Assembly (NCBI GenBank): GCA_021823165.1
Contig: JAKAOS010000004.1
Coordinates: 1-43,139 of the forward strand
DNA from: Actinomycetes bacterium
GTDB taxonomy: Bacteria; Actinomycetota; Acidimicrobiia; Acidimicrobiales; JAKAOS01
Reading direction: 5' to 3'
Length of the DNA: 43,139 nucleotides
Below are positions 1,361 through 10,032 of the stretch, piece after piece. How positions within the stretch are numbered: the stretch's first letter is position 1; each line of letters begins with the position of its first letter. Both the position numbers and the translations under genes were made by a program. The notes under the pieces are model-generated. The model saw only the letters and a program-made list of their open reading frames with translations, did no database searches and was not told the DNA's origin.

Positions 1361-2071
1361 TCAGCTGCGGGCGGTCTCGAATCGGTAGCCGAGGCCCCGG
1401 ATGGTGCTTATCAGCGTGGGCTTGGAGGGGTCTTCCTCGATCCGGGCTCGCAGCCGCTTGACGTGGACATCAAGGGTCTTGGTGTCCCCCACGTAGTGGG
1501 GACCCCAGATCCGGTCTATGAGCGTCTCCCGTGTAAGAACCCGGCCGGCGTTGGTGAGGAGCAGTTCCAACAGCTCAAACTCCTTTAGGGGTAGGCGCAC
1601 CTCGGTGCCGCGCACCATCACCTCGTGCCGTGCGGGATCGAGCCGCACTCCTGCCACCTCCAGTAGGCCCTGGGGCGGGGCGGCTGGCTGTTCCCCGTTC
1701 TGGGAACGCCGCATGACCGCTCGCATCCGGGCCACCAGCTCCCTCAGGCGGTAGGGCTTGGCGACGTAGTCGTCTGCCCCCACCTCGAGGCCCACGACGG
1801 TGTCGATCTCGGTGCCGCGAGCGGTGACCATGATGATGGGCACCGACGAACGGGCCCGGATCTGGCGGCAGACGTCGAGTCCCGAGATCTGTGGCAGCAT
1901 GACGTCGAGAAGTACGATGTCGGGCCGGACTGCGTCGAAACGCTCCAATGCCGTGGGCCCGTCGGCGGCCACTTCGACATCGAAGCCCTCCCGGCGCAGG
2001 CCGACGGATAGGGCGTCGGCTATTGACTCCTCGTCTTCGGCCACCAAGACCGACGGCCGGGACTTGCTCAT
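1361..2071 (-). CDS. OmpR/PhoB-family response regulator (RegX3-like)
   Basis: Receiver domain VLVAEDEES...DIVLLDVMLP...K plus winged-helix C-terminus VRLPLKEFELLELLLTNAGRVLTRETLIDRIWG; overlaps the downstream end of a histidine kinase gene. Confidence 0.93.
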   Translation of the reverse strand: MSKSRPSVLVAEDEESIADALSVGLRREGFDVEVAADGPTALERFDAVRPDIVLLDVMLPQISGLDVCRQIRARSSVPIIMVTARGTEIDTVVGLEVGADDYVAKPYRLRELVARMRAVMRRSQNGEQPAAPPQGLLEVAGVRLDPARHEVMVRGTEVRLPLKEFELLELLLTNAGRVLTRETLIDRIWGPHYVGDTKTLDVHVKRLRARIEEDPSKPTLISTIRGLGYRFETARS

Positions 2072-3444
2072 TGCTCCGCAGAGGAGGCCGTAGCTACCGG
2101 GGTGAAACTCGGTGCTTGACAGGGGATCCGGATGGTGAAGGTGGATCCCTCGCCCTCGCGCGACTCCACCTCTACGGTCCCGCCATGATTGGCCGCCACG
2201 TGTCGCACGATAGCCAGGCCAAGCCCGGTCCCGCCAGTCTGTCTGCTGCGCGCCTGGTCGACGCGGTAGAAGCGCTCGAATATCCGGTCCAGATCCCGGG
2301 CGGGGATGCCTATGCCTTCGTCTTTCACGCTGAAGTGCGCCCAGGGTCCCTCCCGGCTGGCCCTGAGCACGACCTTCCCGCCGGGCTCGGAGTACTTGAC
2401 CGCGTTTTCCAACAGGTTGTTCATTGCCGAGACGAACTGGGGGCGGTCGACTACCACCTCGAAGTTCTCCGGGCCCTCGATGTGTTCGACGGTGATGTGT
2501 GCCGCCTCGGCCACAGAGCGGATCCGGTCCAGCACCTCACCAAGGATGGATGAGGCTGCGACCGCCTCCCGCCCCGGTGATTCCTCGGCTTCGATCCGGG
2601 AGAGATCCAAAAGGTCGCTTATCACCCTGGCTGCGCGCTCGGCCTCGAAATGCATGCGCCGGGCCAGGCGCTGGGTGACGGCCGGGTCATCCTCTGAGGC
2701 GAGGGTTTCGGCCAGGAGTGCCAAACCCGCAATGGGGGTCTTCAGTTCGTGGCTCACGTTCGCCACGAAGTCACGCCTTATCGAATCGACCCGCCGCCGC
2801 TCGGAGATGTCTTCGAATACCGCCACCACCCCGAGGGAGTCCCGGCCGTCATCCAGGGGGGCCGAACGAATGACCAGGGTCCGCCTCGGTGGTCCGTAGA
2901 GTTCCAGGGTCCGCTCGGTTGGCTGGGTGGTGCCCAGGATCTCCCCGATCGCACGAGCCGCCACCAGGTCCGAGTGGTGGCCGCCCAGAAGTCGCTCGGC
3001 GACGGTGTTGCGGTAGATGTCGTCGCCGTTTTCATCGTGGATGACGACCCCCTGGCGCAAAGCGTCGAGGGAACGGCGAAATCTCGTCGCCTCGCAAAGG
3101 CTGCGCCCCACCGCAGCCACCGCCGCTCCGGCCAGATGTTCGATCCGGCCTACCAGCGCCTCCCCGCGCAGTTCTTTGAGGTCACGCCCTTTGGTGCCAT
3201 CGCCATCACCGCCACCGCTTCCCTCACCGGCGGTCCCGTCCTCCGCCCCCGGTCTCCAGGTGGCGACGATCCTCTCCGCTTCGGTCTGAGCGAAGCTGAG
3301 GCGTTCTGCGATGTTCACCAGCCGTTGTCGCTGGCCACGGCGCGCACTCCAACGGCCCAGCCAGATCGCCAATAGCACCGCCAGTGCCACCGCCGCCCCG
3401 GCTATGGCCCAGTCCGGCCAGGGCAAAGTTGGGAAGGTGATCAC
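2068..3444 (-). CDS. Sensor histidine kinase (SenX3/PhoR-like), likely GTG start near 3444
   Basis: N-terminal TM, PAS-like region, HisKA motif FVANVSHELKTPIAGL, HATPase N-box NNLLENAVKYS, G-boxes DEGIGI and GTGLGLAIV. The listed ORF extends to 3537. Confidence 0.92.
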   Translation of the reverse strand: MITFPTLPWPDWAIAGAAVALAVLLAIWLGRWSARRGQRQRLVNIAERLSFAQTEAERIVATWRPGAEDGTAGEGSGGGDGDGTKGRDLKELRGEALVGRIEHLAGAAVAAVGRSLCEATRFRRSLDALRQGVVIHDENGDDIYRNTVAERLLGGHHSDLVAARAIGEILGTTQPTERTLELYGPPRRTLVIRSAPLDDGRDSLGVVAVFEDISERRRVDSIRRDFVANVSHELKTPIAGLALLAETLASEDDPAVTQRLARRMHFEAERAARVISDLLDLSRIEAEESPGREAVAASSILGEVLDRIRSVAEAAHITVEHIEGPENFEVVVDRPQFVSAMNNLLENAVKYSEPGGKVVLRASREGPWAHFSVKDEGIGIPARDLDRIFERFYRVDQARSRQTGGTGLGLAIVRHVAANHGGTVEVESREGEGSTFTIRIPCQAPSFTPVATASSAEQ

Positions 3445-3617
3445 CGCTGGCCTCCTCGAATGTGCCGATGGTCGGGGTCCAAGAGCAAGCCGGCAAGGGC
3501 CGCGGCACACTCCTGCCGCAAAGCGCAGTGCCACCAAGAGCGTAGGGTCACGACAAACAGCCTACGCCCGGCTCATCCTCCCGATGGCGACCAATGAGGC
3601 ACAGCGCGCCCGTTGGG

Positions 3618-4184
3618 TTATCGATGGGCCAAAAGCGACGCGGTTACACCCAGGACATCTCTGACGTAGGTCCGGGAGTGGTCGTAGGCAAATATGGCAT
3701 CTGCCAGGGATGCCGTCCGGCCGGCACCGTTTGCGCACAGGTCCCGGGCCGCCGCGTAGATGGCATCTGGGGGGTTGTAGGGGGAGGGAGGGGACTGTCC
3801 TCCGCTGGGAACCGGGTTGGCGTATTGGGCAAAGGTGGCGGGTTCGAACTGCATCGGGCCCTCCGCCCCAGCGAAGTTGGACCCGCTGTGCACACCGGCC
3901 ATCCCCGACTGGCCATTGGAGGACTCGATGGTCCCAATCGCGCCGAGCACCTGCCAGCGCAGTCCTGGGCAGGTGGCCGCCGCAGACCTGTAGAGGGCGG
4001 CATATGCCGAGGGGATCGGAGATGGGGAGGGGACGCTTCCAACCCGGCCCGGATACTGCTGGCCGCCCGGCACCGGGATAGCGGTGGCATCCAGGATCCA
4101 CAGCACACCCAACAGCGAAGCACCTCCCCATAAAGCGGTCGCGATGACGACGGCCAGGGCAAGGAGAATCAGTGGCTTCTTCAT
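3618..4184 (-). CDS. Lytic transglycosylase (SLT-like; VirB1-like) with N-terminal membrane anchor
   Basis: Hydrophobic N-terminus; CPGLRWQVLGAIGTIESSNGQSG...GAEGPMQFEPATFAQYA...DAIYAAARDLC...FAYDHSRTYVRDVL, typical of actinobacterial SLT proteins. Confidence 0.82.
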   Translation of the reverse strand: MKKPLILLALAVVIATALWGGASLLGVLWILDATAIPVPGGQQYPGRVGSVPSPSPIPSAYAALYRSAAATCPGLRWQVLGAIGTIESSNGQSGMAGVHSGSNFAGAEGPMQFEPATFAQYANPVPSGGQSPPSPYNPPDAIYAAARDLCANGAGRTASLADAIFAYDHSRTYVRDVLGVTASLLAHR

Positions 4185-4323
4185 GGCGACAGATTATAGA
4201 AACAAATGAGATAGCATCAAAGTGCAGAGATCGACTAGGGTGTTGTCTGCAACGGGAGATGGCTGGTCGGCAAGGAGGACGCTTGATGACTCACGAAGTG
4301 ACCGAGGGTGGGAGTGAGGAGCC

Positions 4324-4602
4324 ATGATGATGGCCGTTTCGATGGCCCCGGCGATCGGTGATCTGCCCGGGTCGGCCGTGCTGCAAAATCTCGTGAATGG
4401 GATCGCCGCCTGGGCTCTTTTGTTCTGCCTGGTCGGGATACTGGTTGGGGCCGCAACATGGGCCCTGGGGTCGCATTCGCAGAACTATCAGCACTCATAT
4501 GCCGGGCGGAAGGCGGTGCTGGTATCTGCGATGGCTGCCCTGGCGATCGGTGCCGCCCCCGCTCTGATCAACTTCTTTTTCGCCGCCGGGCGTTCGGCAT
4601 GA
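4324..4602 (+). CDS. Small two-TM membrane protein, VirB2/TrbC- or DUF6112-like
   Basis: 92 aa with two hydrophobic helices, directly upstream of a TrbL/VirB6-like gene; start overlaps a micro-ORF stop (ATGA). Confidence 0.6.
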   Translation: MMMAVSMAPAIGDLPGSAVLQNLVNGIAAWALLFCLVGILVGAATWALGSHSQNYQHSYAGRKAVLVSAMAALAIGAAPALINFFFAAGRSA

Positions 4603-4621
4603 CGGGCGTGGTCCGGCCGGC

Positions 4622-5830
4622 ATGACGGCGCACGCCCTGACTGCCCCCGTCGCCTCCGAGGTGGTGAGGGTGGTGACCACCGCCCTGGTGGGGGCTTTGG
4701 CCACCGCGCTTGGATGGCTGATGCACCAGTTGTCCGCTCTCCTGGCTGCGAGCAGCGGTCCCCAGCTCAATGCCGGGTGGTTCACCGCCCGGTTGGCCAC
4801 CATGAAAGAGGTCGCGGTCTCGGCGGTGCTCCCCCTGCTCTTGGTCTCCATTGGCCAGGCCGTCTGGCGCCAGGACGGTGCCGGGGTGCTCCGTGCCGTG
4901 GGGGTGCAGCTTCCTCTTGCCGCGCTGGGGACGCTTGTGCTCCAGGCGGTGGCGCAGGCCCTGAGCAACGTCGTAGACACCGCCAGCAACTTCGTCAGCG
5001 CCCAGGCGGGCTTCGATCCACACAACCTTTCGCATGTCCTTATGGCAAGTGGGCTTTCCGGGGCGCTCCCTCCTTATGTCGCTCTGCTGCTCGGCATCCT
5101 CAGCGTGGTGGCGGTTGTCCTTTTGTGGTTGGAGATGCTGTGCCGCTCGGGTGCCATCTCGGCGGTGACGCTGTTCATGCCGCTCGCCCTGGCGGGCCTC
5201 GTGTGGCCGGTCACCGCGGTATGGGCCCGCCGTCTCGTCGAGGTCCTGGCTGCACTCATCGTCTCCAAGCTTGCCATTGTGGCGGCGCTTTCGGCGGGGT
5301 CCTTTGCGCTGACCTCGTCGGCGTCTGGGGCCCGAGCCGGCCAGGTGGGGGGCGGTGTGGCCCTCATGGCGATGGCGGCTCTCGCCCCTTTTGCAATCCT
5401 GAGGATGATCCCGATGCTCGAGGGAGCGGCCGGCCTGGAAGGCGTAGCCAGGACCATGGCGACCAGGGTCGCTGACAAGAGGTTCTGGTTGGACCGGGGT
5501 GACCTGGTAGGCGTGGAGGACCTGACCACACCGGCATACGAACCTCCCATGGCAGAAGGGGAGGAGGCCCCCGAATCCTTCAAGCAGGCATGGGCTTCTG
5601 CCGCCGCCCATGCCGAAAACAACGGCAGCCGACCGGACTCCCAACAGGCGGATGGGGCTGCCGGCGAAGGCCCGGGCCATGGCGGTTATCCACCACCTAC
5701 CCCCGGCGGCCCGACCCCCGGCGGCCCGACCCCCGGTTGGCCGTCGCCGGGGGAGTTGTTCCCCACCGGAGACGACGAAGCTCTCCCCGAAGGCTGGAGC
5801 GAAACCGAGTGGGAGGGCGAGGGTGGCTGA
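4622..5830 (+). CDS. TrbL/VirB6-like polytopic membrane protein with Pro/Gly-rich C-terminal tail
   Basis: Multiple TM segments in T4SS gene context; C-terminal PTPGGPTPGGPTPGWPSPG. Confidence 0.7.
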   Translation: MTAHALTAPVASEVVRVVTTALVGALATALGWLMHQLSALLAASSGPQLNAGWFTARLATMKEVAVSAVLPLLLVSIGQAVWRQDGAGVLRAVGVQLPLAALGTLVLQAVAQALSNVVDTASNFVSAQAGFDPHNLSHVLMASGLSGALPPYVALLLGILSVVAVVLLWLEMLCRSGAISAVTLFMPLALAGLVWPVTAVWARRLVEVLAALIVSKLAIVAALSAGSFALTSSASGARAGQVGGGVALMAMAALAPFAILRMIPMLEGAAGLEGVARTMATRVADKRFWLDRGDLVGVEDLTTPAYEPPMAEGEEAPESFKQAWASAAAHAENNGSRPDSQQADGAAGEGPGHGGYPPPTPGGPTPGGPTPGWPSPGELFPTGDDEALPEGWSETEWEGEGG

Positions 5831-7259
5831 CAGGCGCTACCGCTTCGGACCCAGGGACACCAGGGGCATGGTGGCGGGCTGGAGCGCCCAGCAGTTGCTG
5901 GCCGTGCTCCTCGGCATGTCCTGTGCAGTCCTGGCGGCCAGGTCCCTCCCTCAGGGTGTCGGGCTGTTCGTGGCGGTTGCCATCGCGATGATGTCCCTGG
6001 CGCTTCCCAAGTGGTCCTTTTCCGGCCGCAGCGCGGGGGAGTGGTGCTCTGTGGCGATCGCTTGGCAACTCAAGCGGATTCTGTCTCCCCGGCGGCCCGC
6101 AGGGGCCTTGTGTGCCGCCACTGTCTTTGAGGGCGGCCGCTTGTCTAAAGGGCCCATGCCCGGCAGGGCCACCGGAGCGCTGGCCGGGCTTTCGGTGTCT
6201 GAGGTCTGCTTTGGTGGCCGCCGCCTGGGCATGGTCTGGGATTCTTCAGGGGGACGACTGACCGCCGTGATTGCCCTGGCCTCGTCGCCTGCGCTGCTGG
6301 GAGAGCGGGCCGATCGGTCCCGGCTGGCCGATGCCTGGGCCGCGACGCTCGCCTCCGCTGCTGGGGAGGGAAGCAAAATGGCACGTCTGCAGTGGATACA
6401 ACGAGCGATGCCGGCGTCACTCTGGCGATTCGAGCCCGAAGGGGCGGTCCAGGGCCCCGCCCTCTCCTCCTACCTAACCCTGCTTGCCGAGGAGGAGCAA
6501 GTGGGATGGACCCAGGAGGTGTTCTTGGCCGTTTCTGTGGCATCGGGGCGCGGCGGCACCGAGAGGGCCGCCCGAGACCTGGCCGATGAGGCGGGTCGTC
6601 TCGGCACCGAACTGCAACGAGCGGGGATCATGGTGCTGGGGTCTCTGTCGGGTCCAGCGGTGGCGCAGATGCTCAGGAGATCCTTTGACACCTCCCACCG
6701 GCTGCGAAAGGAGCCGGGTGAGGACCTTTCCCCCGATGGAGGGGGAGGGGGGAGCCCTTGGCCCACCGCGATCAGAGAGCATTGGAATGCCTGTCAGGCC
6801 GATGGGACCTGGCACGCGCAGTACTTCGTGGCCGAGTGGCCCCGGACCGAGGTGGGGCCGGACTTCTTGGCACCGCTGTTGTGCGCGGATGTCCGCCGGT
6901 CGATGTCGGTAGTGCTGGAGCCGATAAAGCCAAGCCGTGCGGCCCGCCAGGCCGAGAGGGCCCGAACTGCAGAGGTTGCCGAGGCCCGACTCGCCTCCAG
7001 GGGTGGGTTTCTCACAAGCGAGCGGCGGCGCAGGGAGGCCTTCGAGGCCGGGGAAAAGGCCCGCGAACTGGCGGCGGGCCATTCCGAATACCGCTTTGCG
7101 GCTTATGTGACGGTGACGGCAGACGACCGGGCCGGCCTGGAGGTGGCCGCGAGGAGCATCGAGGGGGCCGCTCGCCAAGTGGGAGTAGATCTCCGCCGAA
7201 TCTACGGCCAGTGTGCTCGAGCGCTTGGCTATGCACTTCCCTGCGCCAGGGGCCTGTAG
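5823..7259 (+). CDS. SCO6880-family-like protein (conjugation/T4SS associated)
   Basis: N-terminal TM hairpin (QQLLAVLLGMSCAVLAARSLPQGVGLFVAVAIAMMSLALP) followed by a VirB4 N-terminal-like region; likely GTG start at 5823 overlapping the preceding stop. Listed ORF begins at 5610. Confidence 0.7.
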   Translation: MADRRYRFGPRDTRGMVAGWSAQQLLAVLLGMSCAVLAARSLPQGVGLFVAVAIAMMSLALPKWSFSGRSAGEWCSVAIAWQLKRILSPRRPAGALCAATVFEGGRLSKGPMPGRATGALAGLSVSEVCFGGRRLGMVWDSSGGRLTAVIALASSPALLGERADRSRLADAWAATLASAAGEGSKMARLQWIQRAMPASLWRFEPEGAVQGPALSSYLTLLAEEEQVGWTQEVFLAVSVASGRGGTERAARDLADEAGRLGTELQRAGIMVLGSLSGPAVAQMLRRSFDTSHRLRKEPGEDLSPDGGGGGSPWPTAIREHWNACQADGTWHAQYFVAEWPRTEVGPDFLAPLLCADVRRSMSVVLEPIKPSRAARQAERARTAEVAEARLASRGGFLTSERRRREAFEAGEKARELAAGHSEYRFAAYVTVTADDRAGLEVAARSIEGAARQVGVDLRRIYGQCARALGYALPCARGL

Positions 7260-7261
7260 CT

Positions 7262-8494
7262 GTGTTGGGAGGATCCCGCCCGCACCGGGCGACCACGGCC
7301 CGGCTGGCGGCACTGCACCCCCTGGCCGGCAGTTCCCCACTGGCGGTCCGATCCACCTACATCGGCCGAGACCTGTTCGGTGCCAGCTTCGGCTTCGACC
7401 CCTTCGCTCTCTATGCGGCGGGGTTGTTATCCAATCCCAACGTGGTGGTGGCGGGCCAGATCGGCCGGGGCAAGTCCTCTCTCATCAAGTCCTTCCTGTG
7501 GCGCCAGGCCTCCCTCGGCCGCGGTGCGTGGGTGATCGACCCCAAGGGCGAGTACTCGGCCTTGGCGGACGCAGCCGGGTGCCGGTGTGTGCGCCTGGGA
7601 TCGGATGAGAGCGCTTCGATCAATCTGTTGGAGCCAGCTTCGGGTGGGGCAGAGGAGATTCCGCTTGCCGTCTCGGCGGTGGCTCATCTGGCAGAGGCCG
7701 CCATGAAGCGCGACCTGCGCCCGACGGAGCGGGCCGCATTGGAAATTGCCGTTGGAAGAACGGCACGGGGGAGAAACCCAGGCCTTTCTGCGCTGAGCGC
7801 GGCCCTTCTTTCACCCTTGGCCGAGGACGCCGAGGGTGCGGGCACGGATCCGGCCGGTCTGGCCAGAGACGGTCGGGAACTGGCCCTGCAGATCCGGATG
7901 CTGGCTTCAGGGGAGATTGGTCGGGTTCTCGAGGCCCCGGCGGGCAAAAGCCTGGATCTGGGGGCCCGACTGGTGGTCCTAGACCTCTCGGCCCTGCATG
8001 GCACGGAGCATTTGGGCCTGGTCATGGGGGCCCTTTTGGCCTGGATGGGGGCTCGCCAGCGCCACATGGCACCCATGAAGCGCTATGTGGTCCTGGACGA
8101 GGCGTGGGCGGTGTTGTCGGAGCCGGCCGTTGCCCGCTGGGCGCAGGTCAGCTGGAAGCTTGCCCGCGCCTATGGCGTTTCCAACATCGCGGTGGTGCAC
8201 AGGATGTCCGACCTGGCCTCGGTCGGCCAACCCGCCTCGGTGCAGAACGCCTGGGCGAAGGGCTTGCTGTCGGACTCCGAGACCCGAGTCGTCTTTGCTC
8301 AATCCCCCGGTGAGGCGGAGGCCTCCCGCTCGCTGCTGGGGATAGGGGTCAACGAGGCGGCTCTGCTGCCCTCCCTCGGATCCGGTGTGGCGCTCTGGAA
8401 GCTCGGGACCCGCTCCTTTTTGGTCCGCCACCGGCTGGGGACCAAGGAAGCCGCCCTGGTCGATACCGACCAGGCCATGAGGGGATGGCCATGA
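7262..8494 (+). CDS. VirB4/TraC-like conjugation ATPase
   Basis: Walker A VVVAGQIGRGKSSLIKSFLWR, DPKGEYSALA, Walker B-like RYVVLDEAWAVL. GTG start at 7262 inferred; listed ORF begins at 6758. Confidence 0.82.
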   Translation: MLGGSRPHRATTARLAALHPLAGSSPLAVRSTYIGRDLFGASFGFDPFALYAAGLLSNPNVVVAGQIGRGKSSLIKSFLWRQASLGRGAWVIDPKGEYSALADAAGCRCVRLGSDESASINLLEPASGGAEEIPLAVSAVAHLAEAAMKRDLRPTERAALEIAVGRTARGRNPGLSALSAALLSPLAEDAEGAGTDPAGLARDGRELALQIRMLASGEIGRVLEAPAGKSLDLGARLVVLDLSALHGTEHLGLVMGALLAWMGARQRHMAPMKRYVVLDEAWAVLSEPAVARWAQVSWKLARAYGVSNIAVVHRMSDLASVGQPASVQNAWAKGLLSDSETRVVFAQSPGEAEASRSLLGIGVNEAALLPSLGSGVALWKLGTRSFLVRHRLGTKEAALVDTDQAMRGWP

Positions 8495-10032
8495 TCATTC
8501 ACCAAGCGACGGCCCTTTTGCATCCGGTCAGCTTTCACAGCCAAGCCTGGCCGGGGTCGGGGCGTTATGGGCTGCTGGTGCCGCTTGCGGCAGCGGTGCT
8601 GGCTTGCTGGTTTTGGTTCAAAGAACGCCGCAGTACTGCCCCGGGGGCGCCGGGATCACCGAGGTCCGGTTGGGCCCGCCCCACGGAACTGCGGCCGCTG
8701 CTGGGACGCGGCGGCAGGGGGGAGAGGGTGGTGCTGGGAAAGATCAGGGCCGGACTGCTCTCGGCAGAGCCGCTCCAGTCCCTGGTGGTATTCGGTCCGT
8801 CCCAGAGCCGCAAGACATCGGGGCTTGCGATCCCGGCGATTCTCGAGTGGAAGGGCCCCATTCTTGCCACAAGCGTGAAGGCCGATCTTTTGGCCCAGAC
8901 CCTTGGATGGCGCTCGGCCCACGGACCTGCCTGGGTATTCGACCCGACCGGCTCGACGAGTATGACCAATGCCGAATGGTCGCCGCTGCAGTGCGCAAGA
9001 ACCTGGGCGGGCGCCCGCCGCATTGCCACCTCGCTATGCATGGCAGCCAAATCTGAAGGTTCTGGGATCACAGATGCCGACTTTTGGTATGCCAGTGCGG
9101 CCAAGTTGCTCGCCCCGATGTTCTTGGCTGCCACCATCAGGTCGGCGAATATGGCAGACGTCGTCAACTGGGTGGACCGCCGAATGCACGCCGAGGCGCT
9201 TTCCGCCCTGGAGTACGGTGGCCACCAAGAGGCTCTCCAGGCCCTTCGAGCCGTCCTCTTCCGAGAGGAACGCCAGCTCAGCTCGGTTTTTGCAACTGCA
9301 GAGGCCGTGCTCGAACCCTTTGCCGAGCCCTGGGCTCCCAGCAGCGGCCAGATTGATATCGAAAAGTTCCTGAACGGCTCGCCGGCCACCCTTTACGTCT
9401 GTGCCCCGTCCCACGACCAGAGGAGGCTCAGGCCCGTCTTTGCGACCCTGATATCTGAGGTTTTGCGTAGTGCCTACGCCCTCTCTCTCAGCCAGGCCCG
9501 CCCGCTCTCCCCTCCGCTGCTCGTGGTGCTGGACGAGGCGGCGAACATAGCGCCGCTTTCCGATCTCGACTCATTGGCCTCAACGGCGGCTGGGCATGGG
9601 ATCCAGTTGATCAGCGTGTGGCAGGATCTGTCCCAGCTCCGTGCCCGTTATGGGGAACGGGCGGCGACCGTTGTCAACAACCACCGGGCGAAACTCGTCC
9701 TGTCGGGTATCTCCGACCCGCCCACACTCGAATATGCAAGCGCTCTCGCGGGGCACAAGGAGACCCGTTCGGTTTCCTGGACCAGGACTCCCGGCGGGCA
9801 GAGGTCTGCCACCACCGCTCCCGAGCGGCATCAGCTGGCACCCCCCGACTCCCTCCGGCGGATGCGGCCCGGCACGGCCCTGCTCCTCTATGGCCACCTT
9901 CCCCCCGCCCGGGTCCGCCTCCGCCCCTACTGGGAGGACCCCGGTCTTGCGAGGCGGGCAGATATGTCCAAAAGACCCGATGCCCGCTCACGCCCCGGTC
10001 CATCTGTGCCCAGCCAAACCGAGCGGATGTGA
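8485..10032 (+). CDS. TraG/VirD4-like type IV coupling ATPase
   Basis: N-terminal TM, P-loop-like VVFGPSQSRKTSGLAIPAILEW, TSVKADLL, Walker B LLVVLDEAANIAPL, C-terminal TraM-recognition-like region LISVWQDLSQLRARYGERAATVVNNHRAKLVLSGISD. Confidence 0.85.
   Translation: MAMIIHQATALLHPVSFHSQAWPGSGRYGLLVPLAAAVLACWFWFKERRSTAPGAPGSPRSGWARPTELRPLLGRGGRGERVVLGKIRAGLLSAEPLQSLVVFGPSQSRKTSGLAIPAILEWKGPILATSVKADLLAQTLGWRSAHGPAWVFDPTGSTSMTNAEWSPLQCARTWAGARRIATSLCMAAKSEGSGITDADFWYASAAKLLAPMFLAATIRSANMADVVNWVDRRMHAEALSALEYGGHQEALQALRAVLFREERQLSSVFATAEAVLEPFAEPWAPSSGQIDIEKFLNGSPATLYVCAPSHDQRRLRPVFATLISEVLRSAYALSLSQARPLSPPLLVVLDEAANIAPLSDLDSLASTAAGHGIQLISVWQDLSQLRARYGERAATVVNNHRAKLVLSGISDPPTLEYASALAGHKETRSVSWTRTPGGQRSATTAPERHQLAPPDSLRRMRPGTALLLYGHLPPARVRLRPYWEDPGLARRADMSKRPDARSRPGPSVPSQTERM

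Follow-up and report, generated by a model that had tools for sequence, protein, structure and literature searches.

A type IV secretion cluster of Acidimicrobiales as the probable secretion half of a chromosomally resident conjugation system

The stretch analysed here (the window, 43,139 bp) is one entire contig (C182) of an Acidimicrobiales genome of 2.2 Mb, assembled in 194 contigs and 91% complete, and it carries a compact type IV secretion system (T4SS) cluster. This cluster probably supplies the secretion half of a conjugation system that is ancient and domesticated and resides on the chromosome, with its relaxase half at a distant fixed locus. A broader statement, to which we give about even chances, is that a large part of the order has a vertically inherited chromosomal conjugation system that moves the cell's own DNA, with the relaxase at a pafBC locus, the T4SS at a senX3-regX3 locus and both in one regulon in many lineages, perhaps acting upon DNA damage or phosphate stress. 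The observations behind these readings are gene content, fixed loci, gene trees that agree with rpoB, co-occurrence, intact nicking residues, a lost helicase P-loop and a shared operator.

Bacterial conjugation is normally a trait of plasmids and integrative elements. If the readings hold, abundant environmental bacteria would possess a built-in chromosomal exchange route, kept even in genomes as small as 1.4–2.3 Mb and parallel to archaeal Ced, but with a relaxase. An exception would then be needed to the published statement that the conjugation systems of bacteria belong to mobile elements (PMC9905601).

The secretion operon at a fixed chromosomal site

The comparison of gene order covered 80 named relatives and another 40 loci; many of the compared T4SS loci end at contig edges, and some lack two-component genes. 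The arrangement in which RegX and SenX lie on one strand and B2, B6, 6880, B4 and D4 follow divergently on the other recurs dozens of times across many families, and this conservation across dozens of other genomes is far more than chance. Beyond the two-component genes, many loci carry seryl-tRNA synthetase (serS/SerRS), while a ROK gene (PPGK-like, ppgK) or PhoU with PstS/PstC-like genes is found in many loci beyond VirD4. The operon therefore occupies one chromosomal site in many families and is not sporadic, which answers the synteny check proposed in the initial annotation.

Each of the three genomes in the window's family contains an orthologue of its VirD4 (56% identity) together with a second VirD4. 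VirB4 is 41–52% identical to nine aligned relatives and just 36% identical to the nearest plasmid VirB4. Relatives with similar VirB4 scores occur in other classes, and the loci inspected there have no senX3 link. B2 directly neighbours B6 in 39 loci; the resident loci lack a gene of cluster c35 that sits between the two in the plasmid of Iamia sp. SCSIO 61187 and in relatives from outside the order. Phage matches were limited to distant VirD4 proteins (22–24%). Comparison with the rpoB tree, evaluated against label shuffles, gave a Mantel r of 0.69 for B4 (10 of 22 splits in common, null maximum 3), 0.64 for D4 (9 of 20, null maximum 3), 0.56 for 6880 (9 of 22, null maximum 2) and 0.42 for the relaxase (6 of 16, null maximum 4).

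The features of the window discussed here are the following.

1361–2071, minus strand: RegX3-type response regulator, conserved neighbour (open reading frame; 60–80% identity, same place in many families)
2068–3537, minus strand: SenX3-type histidine kinase, divergent from the T4SS operon and conserved beside it (HATPase/HisKA; synteny)
3618–4184, minus strand: lytic transglycosylase-like (VirB1-like) protein with N-terminal signal anchor (SLT fold, weak, E 7.7e-4)
4196–4221, minus strand: candidate operator TTTGAT-N4-TCTCAT-N4-TTCTAT, degenerate, reading away from the virB2-like gene (matrix score 11.1)
4324–4602, plus strand: VirB2-like pilin candidate, DUF6112 (E 2.9e-7; hydrophobic segments)
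4622–5830, plus strand: VirB6/TrbL-like polytopic membrane protein, SCO6881 family (weak, E 1.5e-7; about 8 hydrophobic segments)
5868–7259, start uncertain (5754–5868), plus strand: SCO6880 family, VirB3-like N-terminus with VirB4 N-terminal half (NF042935, E 3.8e-61)
about 7262–8494, plus strand: VirB4 C-terminal ATPase half (TraC/VirB4 models, E 5.6e-18)
8485–10032, plus strand: VirD4-type coupling ATPase, VirD4-1 (T4SS-DNA_transf, E 1.2e-37; TraG-D_C, E 1.9e-22)
10206–10643/10739, minus strand: lone receiver-domain protein on the other flank

Profile matches confirmed the contiguous run of T4SS-like genes described in the initial annotation, and the flanks are likewise the SenX3/RegX3-type pair and the lone receiver-domain protein that it had named. 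The operon proper is B2-B6-6880-B4-D4. Its secretion part consists of putative VirB2-, VirB6-, VirB3/VirB4N-, VirB4C- and VirD4-like proteins, the VirB2 and VirB6 assignments being weak by sequence, and the components of a conjugative T4SS (VirB4 ATPase, VirD4 and VirB2/B3/B6-like membrane parts) are thereby represented. The transglycosylase is accessory, its cluster (c18) occurring in 9 loci, a minority of the related ones. An AlphaFold model of the SCO6880 protein (mean pLDDT 77) matched TrwM/VirB3-TrwK/VirB4 of R388 (Foldseek E 3e-11), and the profile of the VirB4 C-terminal half (A2) matched the VirB4 structure 4ag5 (E 2.6e-27), with GxxGRGKS conserved. In VirD4-1 of the window the last P-loop glycine is substituted (GPSQSRKT) and the Walker B sequence DEAANIAP is retained.

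Readings as a mobile element were considered and rejected. A recent mobile element does not fit the fixed locus and the trees that agree with rpoB. An integrative conjugative element, including the actinomycete type (AICE), is not indicated, as no integrase was seen among the window genes, no long flanking or att-like repeats were found around the cluster in the window (which offers just 3.6 kb to its left), the locus is fixed and the relaxase is unlinked; the closest tRNA is 12 kb from the cluster. A conjugative plasmid was dismissed on the grounds that no replication or partition genes were seen near the T4SS and that the window carries IleRS, two tRNA genes and other chromosomal genes. The claim of the initial annotation that the cluster is a resident chromosomal machine and not a mobile element is thus well supported by the fixed locus across families, the agreement with rpoB and the lack of integrase and att-like repeats in the window.

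Some loci depart from the usual content. Four of them (L067, L077, L124 and L132) retain VirD4-1 and a C-terminal VirB4 fragment alone, a secondary decay in which VirD4 was kept. The window's own genome has, at a contig start (G000:C18:73-419, L325), a VirB4-like fragment that is broken and contains a stop codon, representing either the remnant of another T4SS copy or an assembly piece. In one genome (L270, G078:C96), a PstB-like ATPase gene lies between the T4SS operon and senX.

A relaxase at a second conserved locus

The relaxase searches took in two families, the MOBP type (PF03432) and TrwC/MobF. The former was rejected as a candidate, with no match in the 16 genomes searched, whereas a TrwC/MobF relaxase was found in 16 of 16 genomes tested, including the window's own (contig C62). 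Across 397 genomes, a relaxase was present in 68 of the 71 with the resident VirB4 type versus 132 of the 326 others, and the three exceptions are genomes of 74–85% completeness. Since relaxases that belong to mobile elements are included in these counts, single-copy cases at the level of families carry more weight. Two families have the relaxase in 40 of 42 and 59 of 61 genomes, or 20 of 20 and 39 of 39 when only genomes at least 90% complete are considered. The genome-wide absence of a relaxase suggested in the initial annotation proved wrong; its description of a cluster with neither relaxase nor integrase holds inside the window, while the relaxase occupies its own conserved locus elsewhere in the genome. 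Seeking a relaxase only close to the T4SS can therefore mislead.

In most examined loci accompanying a senX3-linked T4SS, the relaxase gene directly follows pafB-pafC on the same strand, and typA or carboxyl transferase genes are often close by. In a closed genome (G032), the T4SS and relaxase loci lie at 209 kb and 581 kb and are thus separated by 372 kb. Family f16 has the relaxase immediately beside B2 and divergent from it, which is likely the ancestral layout.

The relaxase domain matches the solved structures of TrwC (1omh, E 1.5e-49) and TraI, and the catalytic tyrosine and three histidines are conserved in the alignment. The relaxase of the window's genome (G000:C62), unlinked to the T4SS, has these nicking residues at Tyr13 and His159/170/172. 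All scanned pafBC-linked relaxases have the HUH motif HLHxH except L307, where the simple pattern search returned an aberrant match, and all lack Walker A except L304 (GDPLEGKT match); a mobile-type relaxase (L144) retains it. Many resident relaxases are without any helicase region, at about 335–500 codons. Compared with a full-length TrwC-type MobF protein, the HUH domain is present, and an active RecD-like helicase, judged by Walker A, is lacking in all but one of the relaxases scanned.

Family f23, several loci of f32 and others carry a second VirD4 next to the relaxase; 15 of 15 such proteins have a canonical P-loop. The second VirD4 of the window's genome (G000:C120, L039:1425-2843) stands alone on a contig with menaquinone-type genes; it is 35–38% identical, has a canonical P-loop and is conserved in all three genomes of the family.

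In the simplest account, the chromosome would have captured a conjugative element, which would then have split into two parts, shed its integrase and the helicase of its relaxase, and been inherited from then on. At a resident origin, the relaxase would nick the chromosome and remain attached to the 5' end. Because it has lost its own helicase P-loop, a separate host helicase is proposed to unwind the DNA. The VirB2/B3/B4/B6 machine may then receive the nucleoprotein from one or both VirD4 ATPases and would move single-stranded chromosomal DNA to a neighbouring cell or into the medium. The presence of the relaxase and coupling proteins would favour such export of DNA over export of protein. 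Among the functions offered in the initial annotation (protein export, DNA release or uptake, contact-dependent delivery), DNA transfer or release is thus the one that gains, given a relaxase in the same genome and in nearly all T4SS carriers, and protein export is disfavoured.

Two further relaxase-related observations were made. The window's genome contains a piece of a TrwC relaxase that is interrupted by two in-frame TAG codons (G000:C12:5489-5872), and a globin-coupled GGDEF protein (Protoglobin with diguanylate cyclase; L141:156-1142) adjoins the relaxase in that genome and in G050.

A candidate direct-repeat operator upstream of both halves in many lineages

While PHO boxes were sought, three TTTCAW direct repeats with a 10-bp period were found upstream of B2, on the strand opposite to it. 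The PhoP/RegX3 PHO box itself (11-bp direct repeats of GTTCACC) was rejected, as 10-/11-bp GTTCA/GTTCAC repeats are not enriched upstream of B2 or pstS. Known phosphate boxes are spaced 11 bp (PMC6754071), unlike the 10 bp observed here, and the TTTCAW repeat was not seen at pstS. The repeat stays with B2 where other genes come between B2 and senX.

An operator matrix was trained solely on 14 T4SS sites from relatives. With it, the candidate operator is the top site of the 43-kb window (11.1; runner-up 5.8), a score reached by 5 of 2000 intergenic shuffles, and the best site of the locus lies upstream of B2 in 21 of 32 T4SS loci outside the training set. At the relaxase, the best site of the locus lies at most 200 bp upstream in divergent orientation in 13 of 28 resident loci, where about 0.2 would be expected from interval length; the two mobile relaxases tested have no such site there. 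On contig C62, the best site is located at the relaxase start with a score of 13.5. Both sites of this genome are weaker than the consensus, and the genomes of f16 present the same picture. In a genome-wide scan, GC-rich genomes have a handful of sites and the AT-richer G128 and G156 are swamped by chance matches; most of the additional sites look like chance.

Since the same direct-repeat operator lies just upstream of both halves in many lineages, the T4SS and the relaxase are probably expressed together there. RegX is, by position, one candidate for the operator-binding protein. The link to phosphate, consisting of senX3-regX3 and the frequent phoU/pst neighbours, is suggestive only, and the pafBC neighbourhood suggests a DNA-damage link for the relaxase only. 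PafBC is a mycobacterial DNA-damage regulator activated by single-stranded DNA (PMC11804915), and single-stranded DNA made by the relaxase might, hypothetically, activate it. Whether the sensing PafBC and the DNA-making relaxase form one circuit is now a testable question.

A protein family of about 200 residues with the motif DPRSxYVETFWLxxLGPSTTW and no Pfam match follows an operator copy in L261 (G050:C38) and L278 (G021:C49), from two different families, and may be a further regulon member.

Alternative explanations and related systems

Several observations weigh against a resident conjugation system. The genomes surveyed are nearly all metagenome-assembled genomes (MAGs), and about half of the order is without both the T4SS and the relaxase parts, so the system is not universal. 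Part of f32, f33 and f23 has no operator at the relaxase, and f16, f1 and others deviate in details, as in G092, where the relaxase is not beside pafC. In about half of the loci, the window included, the T4SS-linked VirD4-1 no longer has the final glycine of its P-loop. The resident loci lack the bitopic gene that the nearest plasmid relative carries between B2 and B6, and no oriT was found.

Four other explanations were weighed, given here in order of decreasing probability. The T4SS could by itself be a machine for protein or toxin delivery, with the pafBC-linked HUH protein an unrelated DNA-repair nuclease. A relaxase without a helicase P-loop that follows DNA-damage regulator genes would suit such a nuclease, the degenerate P-loops of VirD4-1 point the same way, and relaxase-poor chromosomal T4SSs are known in Patescibacteria (PMC12102498). 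We nevertheless regard it as unlikely: co-occurrence of relaxase and T4SS is strong, the operator is common to both, the relaxase adjoins the T4SS in f16 and the second VirD4 in several families, and no conserved effector-like gene is found at the T4SS locus.

Import of DNA for repair or nutrition is also unlikely and ranks just behind. Its model would be Ced, a domesticated chromosomal VirB2/VirB4-type machine that exchanges DNA after DNA damage (PMC9905601), and both the activation of PafBC by single-stranded DNA (PMC11804915) and the phosphate-related neighbours of the T4SS locus are compatible with it. A relaxase predicted to be catalytically intact, together with two coupling proteins, would instead indicate export, and archaeal conjugative elements themselves are without a recognised relaxase homologue (PMC9905601).

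A helper apparatus kept for mobilising plasmids or integrated elements in trans is doubtful. In several genomes, G092 among them (L144, L145), additional MobF relaxases lie next to an integrase-like or ParA-like gene, but the loci are fixed in lineages with genomes of 1.4–2.7 Mb that mostly have one relaxase, the pafBC-linked one. A degenerating integrated conjugative element, inherited yet non-functional, is very improbable, since the four reduced loci and the broken VirB4-like (C18) and TrwC (C12) pieces stand against open frames and conserved catalytic residues in dozens of families, a maintained operator and core status in two families.

The resident conjugation system resembles known machines in part. 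The Iamia plasmid (NZ_CP050950.1), an actinobacterial MobF/T4SS system, has the same DUF6112-SCO6881-SCO6880-VirB4-VirD4 order and a MobF relaxase on the same replicon; it differs in its bitopic gene between B2 and B6, its 1,125-codon relaxase and its extrachromosomal location, whereas the resident system has fixed chromosomal loci and an unlinked relaxase without helicase P-loop. Archaeal Ced/Ted (PMC9905601) is likewise conjugation machinery domesticated on the chromosome, with VirB2-, VirB6- and VirB4-like parts, but it imports DNA and has no recognised relaxase homologue, while the resident system keeps a relaxase and two VirD4s. The patescibacterial T4SS (PMC12102498) is also chromosomal, widespread and monoderm-type with its own VirB4 clade, but is mostly without relaxase, in contrast to the co-occurrence reported above. 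The T4SS of the Gonococcal Genetic Island (PMC12857230) combines a chromosomal T4SS with a relaxase and secretes chromosomal single-stranded DNA, as is proposed for the resident system; the gonococcal system is F-type and lies on a single island, and the resident one is divided over two loci and belongs to the core genome in families. Mycobacterial distributive conjugal transfer and Streptomyces TraB (PMC12857230) transfer chromosomal DNA in actinobacteria, as is proposed for the resident system, but are ESX- or FtsK/TraB-based and do not use a T4SS with a relaxase. The literature covered, which did not include subscription papers, contained no report linking PafBC or Acidimicrobi- to such a relaxase system. 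Two copies of the locus (L091 and L119) were found on contigs labelled Granulicella and Acidobacteriota, which are probably mis-binned or mislabelled MAG contigs.

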